Made by a program: the position numbers and the translations under genes. From positions 1 to 14,209 of the forward strand of contig CAMEGY010000005.1 in the NCBI GenBank assembly GCA_945916625.1: 14,209 nucleotides of DNA. The letters are read 5' to 3'. Every line of letters starts with the position of its first letter. Within the stretch, counting starts at the first letter, position 1. The notes beneath the pieces are model-generated. The model was given only the letters and a program-made list of their open reading frames with translations, had not been told where the DNA came from and made no database searches. This DNA is from an uncultured Anaerococcus sp. Lineage in GTDB: Bacteria; Bacillota_A; Clostridia; Tissierellales; Peptoniphilaceae. Positions 3,860 through 13,509 of the stretch are shown in pieces.

Positions 3860-4617
3860 TGGATAAAAAAACCTTAATTCTAAAGATAAAAAGTGGCGAA
3901 ATAACTGATGATGCTGCCCTTAAAATCCTAGATGACAAGGGCTATGAAGATATAGGCGAAGTTGCTAAAATCGACTTTGCTAGAAAAGATAGGCGTGGTT
4001 TTCCTGAAGCTATTTATTGCGCATCAAAGGATGATGACAGCCTAGTTAAAATCTTCAAGGCCTTTTACCAAAGACGTGAATCTGTAATCGGAACTAGGGC
4101 AAGTAAAAGGCAATTTCAAGTTGTAAAAGAAGCCATAAAAGACGTAGAGTATTCAGAACTTGGCCAAATCATTTCCCTCGATTATTCAAAAGAATCTCAA
4201 AAAATCGGTGAAATTGCAATAGTATCTGCAGGCACATCAGACCTTCCAGTTAGCCTTGAAGCTGAGATTACTGCAAAATTTCTCGGAGCAAATGTAAAAA
4301 CCTACAGGGATGTGGGAGTTGCTGGAATTCATAGGCTTTTAGATAAGATAGAAGAAATAAGAAAGGCAAATATTATAATTGCTATTGCCGGCATGGAAGC
4401 TGCCCTTGCGACAGTTCTAGCAGGCCTTGTGGATAAGCCAATCATAGCTGTACCTACATCTGTGGGCTACGGGGCAAATCTTGGTGGCATCACCGCTCTC
4501 CTATCAATGATTAACTCCTGCGCAGAAGGAGTAAGTGTAGTAAATATTGACAATGGCTACGGTGCAGCCTACCAAGCTTGTCAGATTAATAAACTAATAG
4601 CGAAAGGAACTAAATAA
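3859..4617 (+). CDS. larB: LarB, nicotinate adenine dinucleotide carboxylase/hydrolase
   Basis: First enzyme of nickel-pincer cofactor synthesis. It carboxylates the pyridine ring of nicotinic acid adenine dinucleotide and releases AMP, giving the biscarboxylated mononucleotide used by LarE. It has 252 residues. The N-terminal ~120 residues are family-specific. The C-terminal half is a PurE-like (AIR carboxylase) fold: SAGTSDLP near 123-130, AGMEAALATVLAGL near 175-188, PTSVGYG near 197-203, and NIDNGYGAAYQA near 230-241. The start is the ATG at 3859, overlapping the larE stop by one base. An in-frame GTG at 3847 lies within the ribosome site AAGGAAG and was not used. The stop overlaps the larC ATG in the same TAATG arrangement. 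Confidence 0.93.
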   Translation: MDKKTLILKIKSGEITDDAALKILDDKGYEDIGEVAKIDFARKDRRGFPEAIYCASKDDDSLVKIFKAFYQRRESVIGTRASKRQFQVVKEAIKDVEYSELGQIISLDYSKESQKIGEIAIVSAGTSDLPVSLEAEITAKFLGANVKTYRDVGVAGIHRLLDKIEEIRKANIIIAIAGMEAALATVLAGLVDKPIIAVPTSVGYGANLGGITALLSMINSCAEGVSVVNIDNGYGAAYQACQINKLIAKGTK

Positions 4618-5504
4618 TGGATTTATATTTTGAAATGTATTCAGGTATAGCTGGAGATATGACAATTGCGGCCCTACTTGATCTTGGGGCAAGCAAGGAT
4701 AAACTTATTGAGGGAATCAATTCTCTAGGCCTTTCTGGTTTTGACCTAGTCTTTGATAGGACAAAGAAAAATGGTATTGATGCCTATAATTTTGATGTAA
4801 TCCTAGAAGGCCACGACCATGATCACCATAAACATGAATATGAACATCATCACGACCATTCTCACAGCCATGACCACTCTCACAATCACGAAGACGGATG
4901 TGGTCATCACCACCATAATCACAAAGATGGTCACGACCACCACCACAATCATTCTCATGACCATTCCCATAACCACGTTCACAGAAACCTAGAAGCAATC
5001 GAAAAAATAATAAATTCTACAGATCTAAATGATAATATAAAGAAAAATTCCCTAGGTATTTTCGATATAATTGGCGATGCAGAGGCCAAGGCCCATGGGA
5101 TTGCAAAATCTGAAGTACACTTCCATGAAGTTGGTGCTATAGATTCTATTATAGATATTGTAGGTACATGCATTCTACTAGATGATTTGGGAGTAGAAAA
5201 TATCTACTTCTCAGACCTTTTCGAGGGTCACGGCTATCAAATGTGTGCCCACGGCCCAATGCCAATCCCTGTGCCAGCTGTAGCAAATATCCTAGCAGAT
5301 TCTGATATTAGCCTTAATTTTATAGGAGAAGAAGGCGAGCACATCACTCCAACTGGAGCTGCTATTGTAAAATACTTCTACAGAAAAGCGCCAGAAAGTT
5401 TCAAAATCAAAAAAATCGGCCTAGGTGCAGGCAACAAGGACTTTGAAAAAACTACCAATATCTTAAGAGTAATGGAAATCGAAAGAGATAAAAAAAAACA
5501 ATAA
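4617..5504 (+). CDS. larC: LarC N-terminal part (LarC1) of the nickel-insertion enzyme
   Basis: LarC is the cyclometallase that inserts nickel into the sulfurated pincer nucleotide using CTP. This reading frame encodes the first 295 residues. It starts MDLYFEMYSGIAGDM, a family signature. Residues 66-122 are extraordinarily histidine-rich, with 29 histidines in 57 residues mixed with Asp, Ser and Asn, and probably bind or store nickel. Conserved LarC stretches follow, including HFHEVGAIDSIIDIVG and GPMPIPVPA. The frame ends at TAA 5502-5504, two codons after a run of nine A, while the rest of the family sequence continues in the -1 frame. The full protein would have 437 residues, close to other LarC proteins. 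In Lactobacillus plantarum larC is likewise split and joined by programmed frameshifting. Ribosome site AAAGGA at 4603-4608. Confidence 0.93.
   Translation: MDLYFEMYSGIAGDMTIAALLDLGASKDKLIEGINSLGLSGFDLVFDRTKKNGIDAYNFDVILEGHDHDHHKHEYEHHHDHSHSHDHSHNHEDGCGHHHHNHKDGHDHHHNHSHDHSHNHVHRNLEAIEKIINSTDLNDNIKKNSLGIFDIIGDAEAKAHGIAKSEVHFHEVGAIDSIIDIVGTCILLDDLGVENIYFSDLFEGHGYQMCAHGPMPIPVPAVANILADSDISLNFIGEEGEHITPTGAAIVKYFYRKAPESFKIKKIGLGAGNKDFEKTTNILRVMEIERDKKKQ
5490..5504 (+). other. larC: Programmed -1 frameshift site joining larC1 and larC2
   Basis: Nine A (5490-5498) contain the slippery heptamer A AAA AAA in the right register (zero-frame codons AAA at 5493 and 5496), followed by CAA and the zero-frame stop TAA at 5502-5504. 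In the -1 frame a TAA occupies 5489-5491, so that frame opens exactly at the A-run. Any shift must therefore happen within about ten bases. Slippage by polymerase adding one A would give the same product. A 6-base stem (AAAGCG 5532-5537 with CGCTTT 5554-5559) lies downstream but is rather far to act as a stimulator. Confidence 0.85.
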
Positions 5505-5929
5505 AACTTCTTGAAACAAATATAGATGACCAAAGCGGGGAACTTCTAGGATTCGCTTTAGAAAAAATCATGGAAATAGCCCTAGATTGCTACTATAGCC
5601 CAATTTTTATGAAAAAAAATCGCCCAGCCTATAAATTGTCGGTTATTTATAAGGCTTGTGATGAAGAAAAAATCGAAGATATAATATTCACAGAGACCAC
5701 ATCTATAGGAGTAAGAAAATTTGACCTCGAAAGGACAATCCTAGATAGGAAAATAATAGAAATATCTTATAAAGATAAAACCTACCTTGCAAAACAAGTT
5801 AGATATAAGGATAAGATTTATACCTATCCAGAATACGAATCTGCAAAAATCTTAGCAGCAAATGAGGGAATATCCTTAAAAGAAGCCTATGATTTGATGA
5901 GGATTTTAGTTAATAAAATAGAAAAATAA
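5492..5929 (+). CDS. larC: LarC C-terminal part (LarC2), expressed by -1 frameshift
   Basis: C-terminal domain of LarC, in the -1 frame relative to larC1. Read through the slip it continues TIKLLETNIDDQSGELLG, then ALEKIMEIALDCYYSPIFMKK and NRPAYKLSV, the conserved LETNIDD and MKKNRP motifs of this family's C-terminal domain. Conserved sequence begins right after the A-run, well before the first ATG at 5570, so that ATG is an internal methionine and not the start of a separate gene. About 143 residues are added after the slip. The segment carries the nucleotide-handling and nickel-insertion part of the enzyme by analogy with L. plantarum LarC2. A strong terminator follows six bases after the stop. 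Confidence 0.9.
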   Translation, partial: KKTIKLLETNIDDQSGELLGFALEKIMEIALDCYYSPIFMKKNRPAYKLSVIYKACDEEKIEDIIFTETTSIGVRKFDLERTILDRKIIEISYKDKTYLAKQVRYKDKIYTYPEYESAKILAANEGISLKEAYDLMRILVNKIEK

Positions 5930-9282: not shown

Positions 9283-10146
9283 TTATTCAACTGTTTTTGA
9301 TAAAAAGCTTGCTGCAGTAAGGGCAGCTATTTGACCTTCACCAACAGCCTTCATTATCTGATAAGGCTTGCCTGTTATATCACCTGCAGCAAATAGTCCC
9401 TTTATAGATGAAGCCATATTCTTATCTACAAGTATATGGCCGTCTTCCATCTTTATAGAAGGAACTAGCCTGTCTGCCTTTGATGAATCTTTTATTATAA
9501 AAAATCCATCAGCTTCGATTTCTTTGCCTGACTTAAATATCAGTTTTTCTGCCTTTAAACCTCCATCAAATCCTTGAGGGATTTCTCCTTGGATTAGGTC
9601 AATATTTTCATTAAGCTTCACATCTCTTCCTGTCATATTGACAAAAGTAACCTTGCCTACAATCTCGCTTGTGAAATTGGCTTCTTCTACGGCCTCCTCA
9701 TTGTATCCTATTACTACAACATTCTTTCCCCTATAGAGGGCTGCGTCACAGGTTGCACAATAGTTTACTCCCTTGGCGAAAAACTTTTCTTCGTTTTCTA
9801 GGTCTTTTTTAAGGTCAATGCCTGTTGTCATTATGACAGTTTTTGCTTCTATCATTTCATCTTGGTTTTCAACTTCGATTGCAAAGAAACTTCCCATGGC
9901 ATAAACTGTTCTAACTCTCTTTTCAGATCTTTCTATGTCATAGCCTTCTAAGGTTTTTTTAAAGTTATTATTTAATTCTTCCCCACTTATGTCTAAAAAG
10001 CCCAAGTAATTTTTTATAGACTTGGTTTTTGCTACTTTTTCACTATCCTTACCAAATAAAATTACTGACTTATTTCTAATCTTAGAATTTAAAGCGGCGC
10101 TAAGTCCTGCAGGACCTGCGCCGATTATTGCTATATCATAAGCCAT
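9283..10146 (-). CDS. trxB: Thioredoxin reductase-like flavoprotein lacking NADPH-binding motifs
   Basis: Flavoprotein expected to reduce the adjacent thioredoxin. It has 287 residues. The FAD site is IIGAGPAGLSAA with Gly9, Gly11 and Gly14, and the second FAD motif is AAGDITG around 253-259. The redox pair is CATC at 130-133. In the insert that normally binds NADPH, the usual GGGxSAxEEA appears as GYNEEAVEEA (147-156), and the HRRxxxR phosphate-binding motif that should follow is missing (VNMTGRDVK instead). This resembles the ferredoxin-linked, pyridine-nucleotide-independent thioredoxin reductases described in clostridia more than classical TrxB; that match is inferred from missing motifs alone. 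The ATG overlaps the trxA stop by one base (TAATG), so the two are coupled. A downstream terminator was not seen. Confidence 0.88.
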   Translation of the reverse strand: MAYDIAIIGAGPAGLSAALNSKIRNKSVILFGKDSEKVAKTKSIKNYLGFLDISGEELNNNFKKTLEGYDIERSEKRVRTVYAMGSFFAIEVENQDEMIEAKTVIMTTGIDLKKDLENEEKFFAKGVNYCATCDAALYRGKNVVVIGYNEEAVEEANFTSEIVGKVTFVNMTGRDVKLNENIDLIQGEIPQGFDGGLKAEKLIFKSGKEIEADGFFIIKDSSKADRLVPSIKMEDGHILVDKNMASSIKGLFAAGDITGKPYQIMKAVGEGQIAALTAASFLSKTVE

Positions 10147-10454
10147 TACTGATATTTATCCATTTCTTCTATGATAGCATCCTTGGTGTGGAAACCTATT
10201 AGGTTGCCTTTGAGGACTCCATCCTTAAATATCAATAAAGATGGGACTGCATTTATATTATATTGGCTGGCAATTTCGTTTGACTCATCTACATCTACAT
10301 TATAGATTTTATAGTCACTTTCATCTGCTAATTCTTCTAGAATTGGTGTTTGCATCTTGCATGGACCACACCAAGTTGCAGAAAAATCAACAAGACAAAG
10401 GCCTGTGCCACTTTCTACTTTTTCTCTAAACTCAAATGTATCTAGTTTTTTCAT
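10146..10454 (-). CDS. trxA: Thioredoxin
   Basis: Small cytoplasmic dithiol protein that reduces disulfides in target enzymes. It has 102 residues, full length for the family. The active site is WCGPC with Cys29 and Cys32, followed by KMQTP. The cis-proline is Pro71 in NAVPSLLIF. One additional cysteine, Cys20, lies in the strand before the active site. The ATG follows an AAGGAGAAG site, and the gene lies 9 bases after the PII-like gene. Its stop overlaps the start of the reductase gene. The spacing suggests one transcript running from the DUF1538 gene through trxB. Confidence 0.96.
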   Translation of the reverse strand: MKKLDTFEFREKVESGTGLCLVDFSATWCGPCKMQTPILEELADESDYKIYNVDVDESNEIASQYNINAVPSLLIFKDGVLKGNLIGFHTKDAIIEEMDKYQ

Positions 10455-10463
10455 ATCTTCTCC

Positions 10464-11060
10464 TTAATCATTTTGCTCTACTAATCCAGCTACATGATTA
10501 ACTGGTAGTGAATATATTATACCCTTTCCTTCGCTTCCTAAATCCATTTGTTCATAAATTTCTTTTTGGATTTTTTCTACAAGGTCTTTTTTGATTAGCA
10601 TTATAACCAAATCTTTTTCAGGTTCTATATTCATTGATAAAAACACCCTACTTTTGACTTCTTCGCCAGATCCTCTACCGTGGATGACTGTCGCACCGCG
10701 GGCCCCATGTTCTTGGGCAATGTGGATGGCTTTTTGTCCTAGGTGTCTGTCAACAATTACATACAAACAAACATAATCCATTTTATTTTCTCCCTCTAAT
10801 GATGTCGAAAAGGCCACAGCTGTGTTGACAGCCTTTAGCTTTTCAGATACTTTTTCTATTACTTTTCTTGCAGTCTCTTCTTCAATCAAAGCTGTCACTA
10901 TTTCTTTTTTTGTCTTATCTATGGCAAGGCTACATAAAATCTCGCTTGGTGCAGATCCTTCTCCATAGAAGCATCCTATAGCTGTTGCGCCGTGATCTTT
11001 TAAAATATTCATAAACTTAGATCCCTTGCCCCTAGGTAAAATTATTCTTAATAATTGCAT
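10464..11060 (-). CDS. Two-domain PII-like regulatory protein
   Basis: Cytoplasmic protein of 198 residues built from two related PII-like (ferredoxin-like fold) halves. The first is about 1-90, with GSKFMNILKDHGATAIGC and GEGSA at 13-37. The second is about 95-198, with GQKAIHIAQEHGARGATV and GRGSG at 108-132. These aligned stretches show an internal duplication. Single PII proteins are about 110 residues and form trimers that bind ATP, ADP or other small molecules and control transporters or enzymes. The tyrosine-bearing T-loop typical of GlnB/GlnK is not recognisable, so this is not a standard nitrogen regulator. Its start overlaps the DUF1538 stop by one base, so the membrane protein is the natural partner. 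Ligand unknown. Ribosome site AAGGGAG. Confidence 0.8.
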   Translation of the reverse strand: MQLLRIILPRGKGSKFMNILKDHGATAIGCFYGEGSAPSEILCSLAIDKTKKEIVTALIEEETARKVIEKVSEKLKAVNTAVAFSTSLEGENKMDYVCLYVIVDRHLGQKAIHIAQEHGARGATVIHGRGSGEEVKSRVFLSMNIEPEKDLVIMLIKKDLVEKIQKEIYEQMDLGSEGKGIIYSLPVNHVAGLVEQND

Positions 11061-12451
11061 TATTTGGCTCCCTTATACAAATTACCCATTATCATAATGG
11101 TTAGTACTGGCATCATGGCTACAAAGGATATAACCCCAAAGCCATCGGCAATATTTCCAGCAACTCCTTGGCAAAATGCAAGGATAAAGGTGGCTGTCAT
11201 TGGCCCTGATGCAACTCCACCTGAGTCAAAGGCAATACCAACAAAGATTTGATCTACCCTTCTAGATAAGATTAGGGATATCAAAAATCCTGGCACAATT
11301 AGCATCCATAGGGAAAAACCATCAATCCTTATCCTAAAGATTGCAAGCATTACCGCAAAAGCTACTCCAATTGATAGGGCAGTTAGGATATTCTTCCTAG
11401 GTATAGAACCCCCTGTTACGTCTTCTACCTGCTCGGCAAGGACGGCTACCGCTGGTTCGGCAAGAACAACTAAAAGTCCTAATACAAAGCCTATAAGTGG
11501 TAAGAACTTACTAGAAGAAAGGCCCTCGCCCATGACTCTTGCAAGGTCCATAAAACCACCTTCTACACTTGTCAAAAATAAAAGCAGACCAAGATAGGTA
11601 TAAATCATTCCTAGTGTAATTGACTTTAGTTCATCTTTTTCGATCTTAAAGTATAAAAAATTCATCACATAAAATACAAGGGCTATTGGCACAATTGCAA
11701 AGGTTGAATTTATAAAGCCTGACATAAGTGGTGAGTGGCTTGCTCCCTCAACAATTGCTATCTCTCCTCCCTTTGAAAATAAATTCATGATAAGGCCGGC
11801 AAGTATTGGTCCTGCTGAGGCAAGACCTACAAGGCCGAAGGAATCATCTTCGCTTCTATCACCCTTTAGGCTTGCAACACCTAGGCCCAGGGCAATTATA
11901 AATGGAGTTGTCATAGCTCCAGTAGTTGCTCCTGATGCGTCAAAGGCAATGGCGTGGCCTATTTCATCTGTAAAAATCATTAGGATGAAAACTATACCGT
12001 AGATTATGCACATCAAGGTCGAAAGTCTTATATCCTTAAATATCCTAAAAAGTCCTATGGATATCATTATCCCAACCCCTAGGGAAATTATCATTACAAT
12101 TAATTGGGATTTCATCCCAATGGCTCCGGAAACTTCGTTGGCTAAGATTAAAAGGTCTGGCTCTGCAATTGATATGGTAAAACCTATAAAAATCCCGAAT
12201 ATTAATACCTTTATTATACTAGAAAATCTTGCCAAGAATTCCCCCATTATTGTTCCTATTTGAGATATGGATATCTCTACACCTGTTAAAAACAAGCCGA
12301 GTCCCAAGATAACACCAGCGCATCCTAGAAAGAAATTGATTAAAAGTCTTGATTCTACTCCTACAAAAAAGTTTAGAATCACAACTAGGATTGCTATTGG
12401 AATTACGGACTTGGAAGTGTTTTTGATTTCATCTATAAATATAAAATCCAC
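11060..12451 (-). CDS. DUF1538 family membrane protein with internal duplication
   Basis: Polytopic membrane protein, probably a transporter or channel, of unknown substrate. It has about 463 residues with many hydrophobic segments and two homologous halves. Matching pairs (numbered from GTG 12451) are GLGLFLTGVEI with LGLLLFLTSVE (about 50 and 287), AEPDLLILANEV with AEPAVAVLAEQV (96 and 331), and AFDASGATTGAMT with AFDSGGVASGPMT (169 and 407). The acidic Glu/Asp in these repeats sit in or near membrane segments and could form a substrate or ion site. The start is uncertain. GTG 12451 has a purine-rich site almost touching it. A TTG at 12481 would extend the frame by ten residues but lies in the pta terminator hairpin. 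The stop overlaps the PII-like gene (TAATG), pointing to a transporter-regulator pair. Confidence 0.82.
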   Translation of the reverse strand: MDFIFIDEIKNTSKSVIPIAILVVILNFFVGVESRLLINFFLGCAGVILGLGLFLTGVEISISQIGTIMGEFLARFSSIIKVLIFGIFIGFTISIAEPDLLILANEVSGAIGMKSQLIVMIISLGVGIMISIGLFRIFKDIRLSTLMCIIYGIVFILMIFTDEIGHAIAFDASGATTGAMTTPFIIALGLGVASLKGDRSEDDSFGLVGLASAGPILAGLIMNLFSKGGEIAIVEGASHSPLMSGFINSTFAIVPIALVFYVMNFLYFKIEKDELKSITLGMIYTYLGLLLFLTSVEGGFMDLARVMGEGLSSSKFLPLIGFVLGLLVVLAEPAVAVLAEQVEDVTGGSIPRKNILTALSIGVAFAVMLAIFRIRIDGFSLWMLIVPGFLISLILSRRVDQIFVGIAFDSGGVASGPMTATFILAFCQGVAGNIADGFGVISFVAMMPVLTIMIMGNLYKGAK

Positions 12452-12465
12452 CCTCTTTCTTTTAT

Positions 12466-12493
12466 AAAAAAGAGCAATCAAAATTGATTGCCC
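12466..12493 (-). terminator. Rho-independent terminator of pta
   Basis: On the minus strand, GGGCAATCA (12485-12493) pairs with TGATTGCTC (12472-12480), nine pairs including one G-U, around a 4-base loop. Six T follow. It lies 27 bases after the pta stop and only 15 bases before the GTG of the DUF1538 gene, so read-through or a promoter hidden at the end of pta must feed that operon. Confidence 0.85.
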
Positions 12494-12519: not shown

Positions 12520-13509
12520 TTATCTATCTGCTGCTTGCATAGCGGTGATAATAGCTATTTCATATACATCTTGAGCTGAACAACCTCTTGAAAGGTCATT
12601 AACTGGTGCATTTAGTCCTTGGAGAATTGGTCCTAGGGCTTTGTAACCGCCAAGTCTTTGTGCTATTTTATAACCGATGTTGCCAGCTTGTAGGTCTGGG
12701 AAGATAAATACATTACACTTACCTGCTACTTCGTTGCCTGGAAGCTTGTTTGCTGCTGTCACTGGATCTAGTGCTGCGTCAAATTGAACTTCACCTACGA
12801 TTTTTAGGTCTGGGTCGTACTCTTCTGCAAGGTATGTTGCCCTAGCTACCTTAGTTGCAAGGTCGTGGTGGGCTGAGCCATGTGTTGAGAATGATAACAT
12901 TGCGACATATGGATCTAGACCAAATGTTTTGGCTGTATTAGCTGTTTCTACTGCCACTTCTGCAAGTTCGTCAGCTTCTAGGGTTATATTTACTGCTGTA
13001 TCCGCAAATACTAATTGTTCGCCGTCTGGTCCTAACATTACCATTACACCAGATACTCTTTTTCTTCCTGGAATCGTTCTTATGATTTGTAGAGCTGGTC
13101 TAATTGTGTCTGCTGTAGTATGGATTGCACCTGATACAAGACCGTCTGCATATCCTAATTTAACAAGCATTACACCAAAATAATTTAGATCTCTTCTAAG
13201 TATAAATTCTGCTTCTTCTCTGTCGATTTTGCCTTTACGAATTTCAGCAAAAGCGTCAACCATTTCTTCAAATTTTTCAAAAGTCTCTGGATTTAATATT
13301 TTAATTTCAGAAATACTTTTTTCTAATTTGTCAGCTGTTTTTTGGATTTCTCCTTGGTCACCTAGTATGATTGGCTTTATAAGCCCTTCTTCTTGGTGTC
13401 TTATAGCTGCTTCTAGTATTCTTTCGTCCTTACCTTCTGGTAAAACTATAGTAAGATTTTTTCCTTTAATAGTTTTAATAGCTTGATCTAAAATCCCGTT
13501 TGTTGCCAT
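12520..13509 (-). CDS. pta: Phosphate acetyltransferase
   Basis: Converts acetyl-CoA and phosphate to acetyl phosphate and CoA. With acetate kinase (not in the window) it yields ATP from fermentation. At 329 residues it is the short form made of the catalytic domain alone. Family motifs are PEGKDERIL at 24-32, ADGLVSGAIHTTADTIRPAL at 121-140, LSFSTHGSA at 205-213 and the C-terminal GPILQGLNAPVNDLSRGCS at 293-311. The ATG follows a strong TAGGAGG site. It lies 73 bases after the DUF4446 gene without an obvious terminator between them, so part of its transcription could come from upstream. Phosphate butyryltransferase is the main alternative, but length and motifs favour Pta. Confidence 0.96.
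   Translation of the reverse strand: MATNGILDQAIKTIKGKNLTIVLPEGKDERILEAAIRHQEEGLIKPIILGDQGEIQKTADKLEKSISEIKILNPETFEKFEEMVDAFAEIRKGKIDREEAEFILRRDLNYFGVMLVKLGYADGLVSGAIHTTADTIRPALQIIRTIPGRKRVSGVMVMLGPDGEQLVFADTAVNITLEADELAEVAVETANTAKTFGLDPYVAMLSFSTHGSAHHDLATKVARATYLAEEYDPDLKIVGEVQFDAALDPVTAANKLPGNEVAGKCNVFIFPDLQAGNIGYKIAQRLGGYKALGPILQGLNAPVNDLSRGCSAQDVYEIAIITAMQAADR

Follow-up and report, generated by a model that had tools for sequence, protein, structure and literature searches.

The window analysed here, the whole 14,209-nucleotide stretch at positions 1 to 14,209 of contig CAMEGY010000005.1 (assembly GCA_945916625.1) from an uncultured Anaerococcus sp., carries a compact array of four minus-strand genes encoding a DUF1538 membrane protein, a PII-like protein, a thioredoxin (TrxA) and a thioredoxin reductase of the ferredoxin-dependent flavin type (FFTR). 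The array probably consists of two independent two-gene units lying side by side, one a putative PII-gated monovalent-cation/proton antiporter (DUF1538-PII) and the other a general thiol-reducing couple (TrxA-FFTR). We hypothesize that DUF1538 acts as the antiporter, a covalently joined version of a UmpA-UmpB-like pair, and that the tandem PII would bind its cytoplasmic face and open or close it according to a bound small ligand. TrxA-FFTR, fed by ferredoxin, would reduce thiols in general with no specific role in the antiporter, and would simply share with DUF1538-PII a chromosomal block of the gene order pta-...-marR-ftsH, for which we use the label Anaerococcus-type block. The four genes, in the order in which they would be read, are as follows.

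11060..12451, minus strand: DUF1538 membrane protein with two DUF1538 domains in one chain (UmpA-UmpB-like fusion), 463 amino acids, GTG start (open reading frame [ORF], PF07556)
10464..11060, minus strand: tandem PII-like protein, 198 amino acids, domain 1 at about residues 1-92 and domain 2 at about residues 93-198 (PF00543, structure model)
10146..10454, minus strand: TrxA, 102 amino acids, WCGPC active site (PF00085, TIGR01068)
9283..10146, minus strand: thioredoxin reductase of FFTR type, 287 amino acids, CATC kept (PDB matches, motif comparison)

The gene arrangement is real, and its spacings are exactly those given in a preliminary description of this DNA: DUF1538 ends on the base at which the PII-like ORF starts (11060; 1-base overlap), 9 bases separate the PII-like end at 10464 from the TrxA start at 10454, and TrxA ends where the reductase starts (10146; 1-base overlap). 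The span given there, 10146 to 12451, covered the first three genes but took in only the first base of the reductase gene (9283-10146). The array is not a product of chance, and its two halves differ greatly in conservation.

Across 130 Peptoniphilaceae genomes, DUF1538 was matched in 73 (72 over the Pfam cut-off), and a PII-like match adjoined it in 70 of these 73, genes broken in either partner being counted. The three misses were G029 (split between contigs), G078, and G105 (DUF1538 match under the Pfam cut-off). These genome adjacency counts were typed by hand from the main places, leaving out weak single-domain PII matches elsewhere and some second fragments, and reductases above 200 bits were counted in them as FFTR. 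At the level of single loci, 54 of 55 in the family and 45 of 46 in the wider set had PII no more than 1.5 kb from DUF1538, the misses being L070, where a PII remnant is present, and L121. The family loci were picked by us (60 regions plus L001 and L002, weighted to the block), with 55 of the 62 having a DUF1538 ORF above 60 bits; the wider set comprises 40 Bacillota regions from 38 of 84 matching genomes, mostly high-scoring matches, together with 6 of 9 plasmid records. Flanks were mostly 4 to 5 kb, some of them ending at contig ends, with 6 kb as the upper bound. The pairing first noticed in the window is therefore a conserved one, and it is the kind of gene pairing expected of a PII-gated transporter. 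That part of the earlier proposal is a sound deduction from the conserved pair, but the thiol control attached to it is not supported. Of 249 genomes sampled from the phylum, 84 gave a DUF1538 match, so that the system is common, and two Alphaproteobacterial plasmids carry the order DUF1538-DUF1538-PII.

The form of PII also tends to follow that of its partner. Among the loci classed as having one-chain DUF1538, 37 of 38 in the family and 27 of 29 in the wider set pair it with a two-domain PII. Split DUF1538 in the wider set was accompanied by one-domain PIIs in 11 of 16 loci, by a two-domain PII in 4, and in 1 (L097) by none that the script recognised; the record of L097 annotates a P-II gene of 369 bases. 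None of these counts is corrected for kinship. At six family loci among those studied, DUF1538 extends at its C-terminus into a fused PII domain (E values of 4e-11 to 2e-22 with a two-domain PII profile), and all six also carry a separate two-domain PII. These covalent fusions, as computed here, together with the occurrence of the pairing in both Bacillota and Pseudomonadota, make it improbable that PII has no contact with the membrane protein and that the pairing reflects co-regulation with a PII acting elsewhere in the cell. Such a reading would fit a pairing that is known here from genome data, and it would fit three Peptoniphilaceae genomes (G061, G083 and G085) with a two-domain PII and no DUF1538 match.

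The TrxA-FFTR half is distributed differently. Of the 73 DUF1538 genomes, 38 have an FFTR-type reductase somewhere and 28 have it directly beside DUF1538-PII, and the available flanks of the 46 wider DUF1538 loci contain no Trx or reductase gene. Among the family loci, 26 have TrxA close by and 25 of these also have FFTR, all of them in one syntenic block with the gene order DUF4446-pta-[DUF1538-PII]-trxA-FFTR; one further family locus (L081) has an NADPH-type reductase nearby. Within the block pta is an equally constant neighbour of DUF1538, so that the link to Trx weighs no more than the one to pta. The preliminary description had proposed that a redox link would be accidental if trxA/trxB rarely accompanied DUF1538-PII pairs; rarity is what the survey found, and an accidental link is most likely.

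Gene decay within the block separates the two halves further. Losses were counted on a tree built from the PTA, TrxA and FFTR sequences of 30 loci, and DUF1538-PII was broken or absent in 12 block loci that represent 10 separate clades, assuming that the intact state is ancestral. Pieces of DUF1538 remain in 10 of these 12; L043 has lost DUF1538 and holds a PII remnant, and in L073 neither gene was matched. In the 11 loci with DUF1538 broken or gone, L073 aside (L035, L037, L042, L043, L044, L047, L049, L056, L057, L059 and L070), PII is broken in 8, the exceptions being L035, L037 and L042 with a full-length gene, and TrxA and FFTR have kept their full length in each of the 11. All 16 block loci with intact DUF1538 have a full-length PII. 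L053 has its DUF1538 divided between contigs and was counted neither as intact nor as broken, the block genomes G033 and G037 were not included, and the DUF1538 breaks in L037 and L042 are single lesions that could be sequencing errors. By our counts, DUF1538 and PII tend to break down jointly, and TrxA-FFTR persists in their absence. The many losses suggest that the antiporter is often dispensable in block genomes. At intact loci the DUF1538/PII and trxA/FFTR junctions overlap by 1 or 4 bases or stand 1 base apart, and the PII-trxA gap runs from 1 to 77 bases, reaching 231 in L054 (start codons chosen by script). L054 is also the only block locus in which FFTR is gone while TrxA and DUF1538-PII remain; other reductase-like genes are present in that genome (G031).

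The window DUF1538 protein matches PF07556 in two stretches at 365 bits, against a gathering score of 22.6. Its predicted structure is all-helical, with a predicted local distance difference test score (pLDDT) of 84, and in both halves the conserved AEP motif coincides with a helix break, as does the FDxxG motif or the stretch just behind it. Such breaks occur in many secondary carriers. Neither Foldseek nor VIA-align found a confident relative of the fold (weak rows include EAAT-type carriers, NCX_Mj and TTYH), and a sequence search of the PDB found no solved relative; the lack of a confident fold match does not show the fold to be new. Named relatives are Anaerococcus proteins, with that of A. 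murdochii 88% identical over 97% of the protein among the 120 matches listed and those of A. degeneri and A. lactolyticus 86% identical to the window protein. The GTG start at 12451 lies near the chain starts of relatives, and a TTG at 12481 is also open.

The preliminary description knew of no described function for DUF1538, although one has been published. NCBIfam holds models for UmpA and UmpB, and UmpA and UmpB of Halomonas zhaodongensis, members of the DUF1538 family, are published as a two-component Na+(Li+,K+)/H+ antiporter (PMC5484666). The window protein scores 134.4 on the UmpA model (cut-off 490) and 114 on the UmpB model (cut-off 500), missing both equivalog cut-offs by far; judged by sequence, it is a relative of UmpAB and not proven equal to it. 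By analogy with the published family member, antiport is the likeliest activity of DUF1538. The same article reports that umpA and umpB alone, in a pETDuet construct, rescue Escherichia coli KNabc (PMC5484666); the PII partner therefore most likely regulates transport and takes no part in catalysis. Going by the precedents of SbtB acting on SbtA and GlnK on AmtB, ligand-dependent gating is its likeliest mode of action.

We think it rather unlikely that this DUF1538 instead moves another solute, for instance an anion, organic or inorganic, together with a coupling ion, and that PII gates its uptake or export. The distance from the UmpA and UmpB equivalog cut-offs and the absence of a confident fold match to a known antiporter would allow for it, and the weak structural matches include anion and glutamate carriers. 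PII-gated transporters also include carriers of ammonium and, in SbtA-SbtB with its PII-like regulator, of bicarbonate (PMC8352866). Against this stand the activity of the characterised DUF1538 member that we found, a cation/proton antiporter (PMC5484666), and the presence of DUF1538 among the features associated with growth pH in a table of PMC13255231.

The PII-like protein is a tandem of which Pfam recognises only one domain: PF00543 (P-II) matches the second half at 39.9 bits. The first half is PII-like as well, with an alignment profile matching a P-II chain in the PDB at positions 1-74 (E = 9e-6), and the structure model (pLDDT 82) matches PII, SbtB and CPII structures over residues 1-92 and again over residues 93-198. 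The Pfam match over its cut-off together with the PII fold places the protein in the PII superfamily. In the model, residues 136-142 of domain 2 form a T-loop-like flexible stretch (pLDDT below 50). The T-loop tyrosine is the uridylylation site of classical GlnB and GlnK, and the alignment places no tyrosine in residues 127-150 of the window PII, which therefore does not fit a uridylylated GlnB/GlnK. PDB entry 9p1x, which matches domain 1, was weighed as a possible transporter complex but is taken as a PII relative only, since a fragment of it resembles NifI1.

Two variations on the pairing were seen among the loci. At L074 and L082, a two-domain PII gene without a DUF1538 match overlaps by 4 bases a gene of 155 amino acids that looks, by eye, like the methylguanine-DNA methyltransferase type, and PII at these loci may have another partner. 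DUF1538-PII cassettes occur twice in a row at L112, L114 and L122 (Bacillota). Clustering of 296 neighbouring ORFs gave as its widest cluster one with 26 loci which, like a ParB-like cluster (5 loci), belongs to the block; the other clusters with at least three loci were an ABC ATPase (8), a MATE-like one (4) and two with 3 loci each (names by eye).

TrxA is recognised by PF00085 (87.8 bits) and by TIGR01068 (97.9 bits against a cut-off of 96.8). In a PDB sequence search its neighbour, the reductase, is closest to 6gna, 6gnc and 6gnd (260 to 265 bits, against 119 for the best other TrxB). The chains 6gna-6gnd are named only "Thioredoxin reductase" in the database output, and we take them to be clostridial FFTR structures. 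The motifs GGGxSA and HRRDxFR are the NADPH-binding motifs of TrxB. Both are absent, and CATC is kept, in the window reductase and in 29 other reductases, and the two NADPH-type controls, taken from genomes of this bacterial family, each have both; on TIGR01292 the window protein scores 186 bits, with a cut-off of 343. The protein earlier labelled "TrxB-like" is thus not an ordinary NADPH TrxB, and as an FFTR type it should take its electrons from ferredoxin. It shares the absence of NADPH motifs and the trxA-trxB couple with the clostridial FFTR and thioredoxin systems (6gna-6gnd; TrxB1 and TrxB4 of Clostridioides difficile, given as FFTR-type reductases in PMC10880999), differing in that a transporter-PII pair unrelated to the couple precedes it here, within a single block of a single bacterial family. 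L141 and L142 (genomes G001 and G019) each carry both an FFTR-type and an NADPH-type reductase, whereas PMC10880999 gives one TrxB for Tissierellales.

Several points weigh against two independent units built around a PII-gated antiporter. The Pfam P-II model misses the fused C-terminal domains in all five of the six that were scanned with it; these domains are matched only by the two-domain PII profile. The scores far under the UmpA and UmpB equivalog cut-offs mean that the same substrate as UmpAB is not assured, the presumed direct contact between DUF1538 and PII is derived from genome data alone, and the four genes lie so close together in the block that they could share one transcript. Two cysteines also fit a redox role, confounded by descent: 19 of 21 trx-adjacent PII sequences have C30 and none of the 31 others does, and for C427 of DUF1538 the figures are 15 of 15 and 0 of 28. 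A second DUF1538 cysteine, C44, occurs in 9 of 15 trx-adjacent sequences against 0 of 28 others. The columns diagnostic for the clade number 4 of 198 in PII and 12 of 463 in DUF1538, with one cysteine column in each protein, so that one ancestral change each can explain C30 and C427; as far as the alignments indicate, both are clade markers.

These cysteines are part of what might speak for the preliminary proposal that all four genes form one functional unit, in which a transporter is set by a ligand via PII and by thiol state via TrxA and the reductase. The tight gene spacing in the window, the conservation of the block in many related genomes and, as a precedent, the redox-sensitive loop of SbtB (PMC10991534) point the same way, and yet we consider such a unit very unlikely. 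FFTR is adjacent in only 28 of the 73 genomes and the flanks of the wider loci hold no Trx gene; TrxA-FFTR is retained where DUF1538-PII has been lost. L054 has an intact DUF1538-PII and keeps both PII C30 and DUF1538 C427 with FFTR gone, and L072 has the trx pair but a valine at PII position 30. The cysteines of the window PII lie only at positions 30, 43 and 98, so it lacks a C-terminal cysteine pair of the SbtB type, and C30 and C427 can each be accounted for by a single ancestral change. Redox coupling was rejected as the leading reading on the strength of the wider loci, the decay pattern, L054 and L072, and is kept as a rival; the claim that a thiol-disulfide pair sets transporter activity is not supported by a couple that was seen beside DUF1538-PII in one block only and stayed where DUF1538-PII was lost or broken in ten clades. 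A real thiol input is, in our estimate, extremely unlikely. Just as remote is the more elaborate case in which DUF1538-PII would be an unrecognised, widespread class of PII-gated cation/proton antiporters, with tandem PIIs matching fused halves, and the Anaerococcus lineage would in addition have gained a ferredoxin-fed thiol input through TrxA-FFTR acting on C30 and C427.

PII-gated transporters are already known, and it is the pairing of DUF1538 with tandem and fused PIIs that we did not find described. AmtB-GlnK, in which the PII protein GlnK acts on the channel/transporter AmtB, is alike in pairing a PII protein with a channel/transporter and differs in having another transporter, while the window PII has no T-loop tyrosine. 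SbtA-SbtB is likewise a PII-like partner of a membrane transporter, and the window PII model matches SbtB over each half, but the window PII is a tandem rather than one domain and has no C-terminal cysteine pair, and DUF1538 has no sequence match to any PDB chain. UmpAB belongs to the same Pfam family and has two homologous DUF1538 units that are needed together, whereas in the window the two units are joined in a single protein that falls far short of the equivalog cut-offs and is encoded beside a PII gene. The main text of the UmpAB article contains neither "PII" nor "P-II" by text search (PMC5484666; the Halomonas genome was not checked for a PII neighbour), and literature searches on DUF1538, Ump names and PII proteins, tandem or fused PIIs included, found no description of the pairing in the articles available to them. 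Among the articles listed, only PMC7221264 holds both DUF1538 and PII, and PII stands there within a sequence motif; the listed articles with Ump names and PII but no DUF1538 are, by title, on viruses, taxonomy and other subjects. Should DUF1538-PII pairs indeed be PII-gated antiporters, many anaerobes would couple their ion and pH balance to a metabolic or nucleotide signal, and the pair is testable in an existing salt-sensitive E. coli strain. The tight spacing in one genome hinted at a redox switch that the wider comparison does not uphold.

The array is part of a longer minus-strand run of pta, DUF1538, PII-like, trxA and reductase genes followed by a MarR-type regulator and an FtsH-like gene (FtsH by eye). 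Two further features lie upstream of DUF1538.

12466..12491, minus strand: terminator-like hairpin with T-run between pta and DUF1538 (inverted repeat listed on the plus strand; minus-strand T-run by eye)
12520..13509, minus strand: pta (phosphate acetyltransferase), a syntenic neighbour outside the unit (PF01515; same place in block loci)

The hairpin lies 14 bases before the GTG of DUF1538, leaving almost no room for a promoter, and the DUF1538 operon may depend on read-through from pta. A promoter scan of the window gave 16 hits against a mean of 16.9 in shuffles, no excess, and an Rfam search of the window gave no match at the gathering score. Elsewhere in the window, on the plus strand, a LarC-like nickel-insertion gene is split in two frames (4617-5504 and 5570-5929) and adjoins LarE- and LarB-like genes (by eye); Pfam Ni_insertion was tested on the second piece (5570-5929) only. 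LarC made through a frameshift is known in other bacteria.

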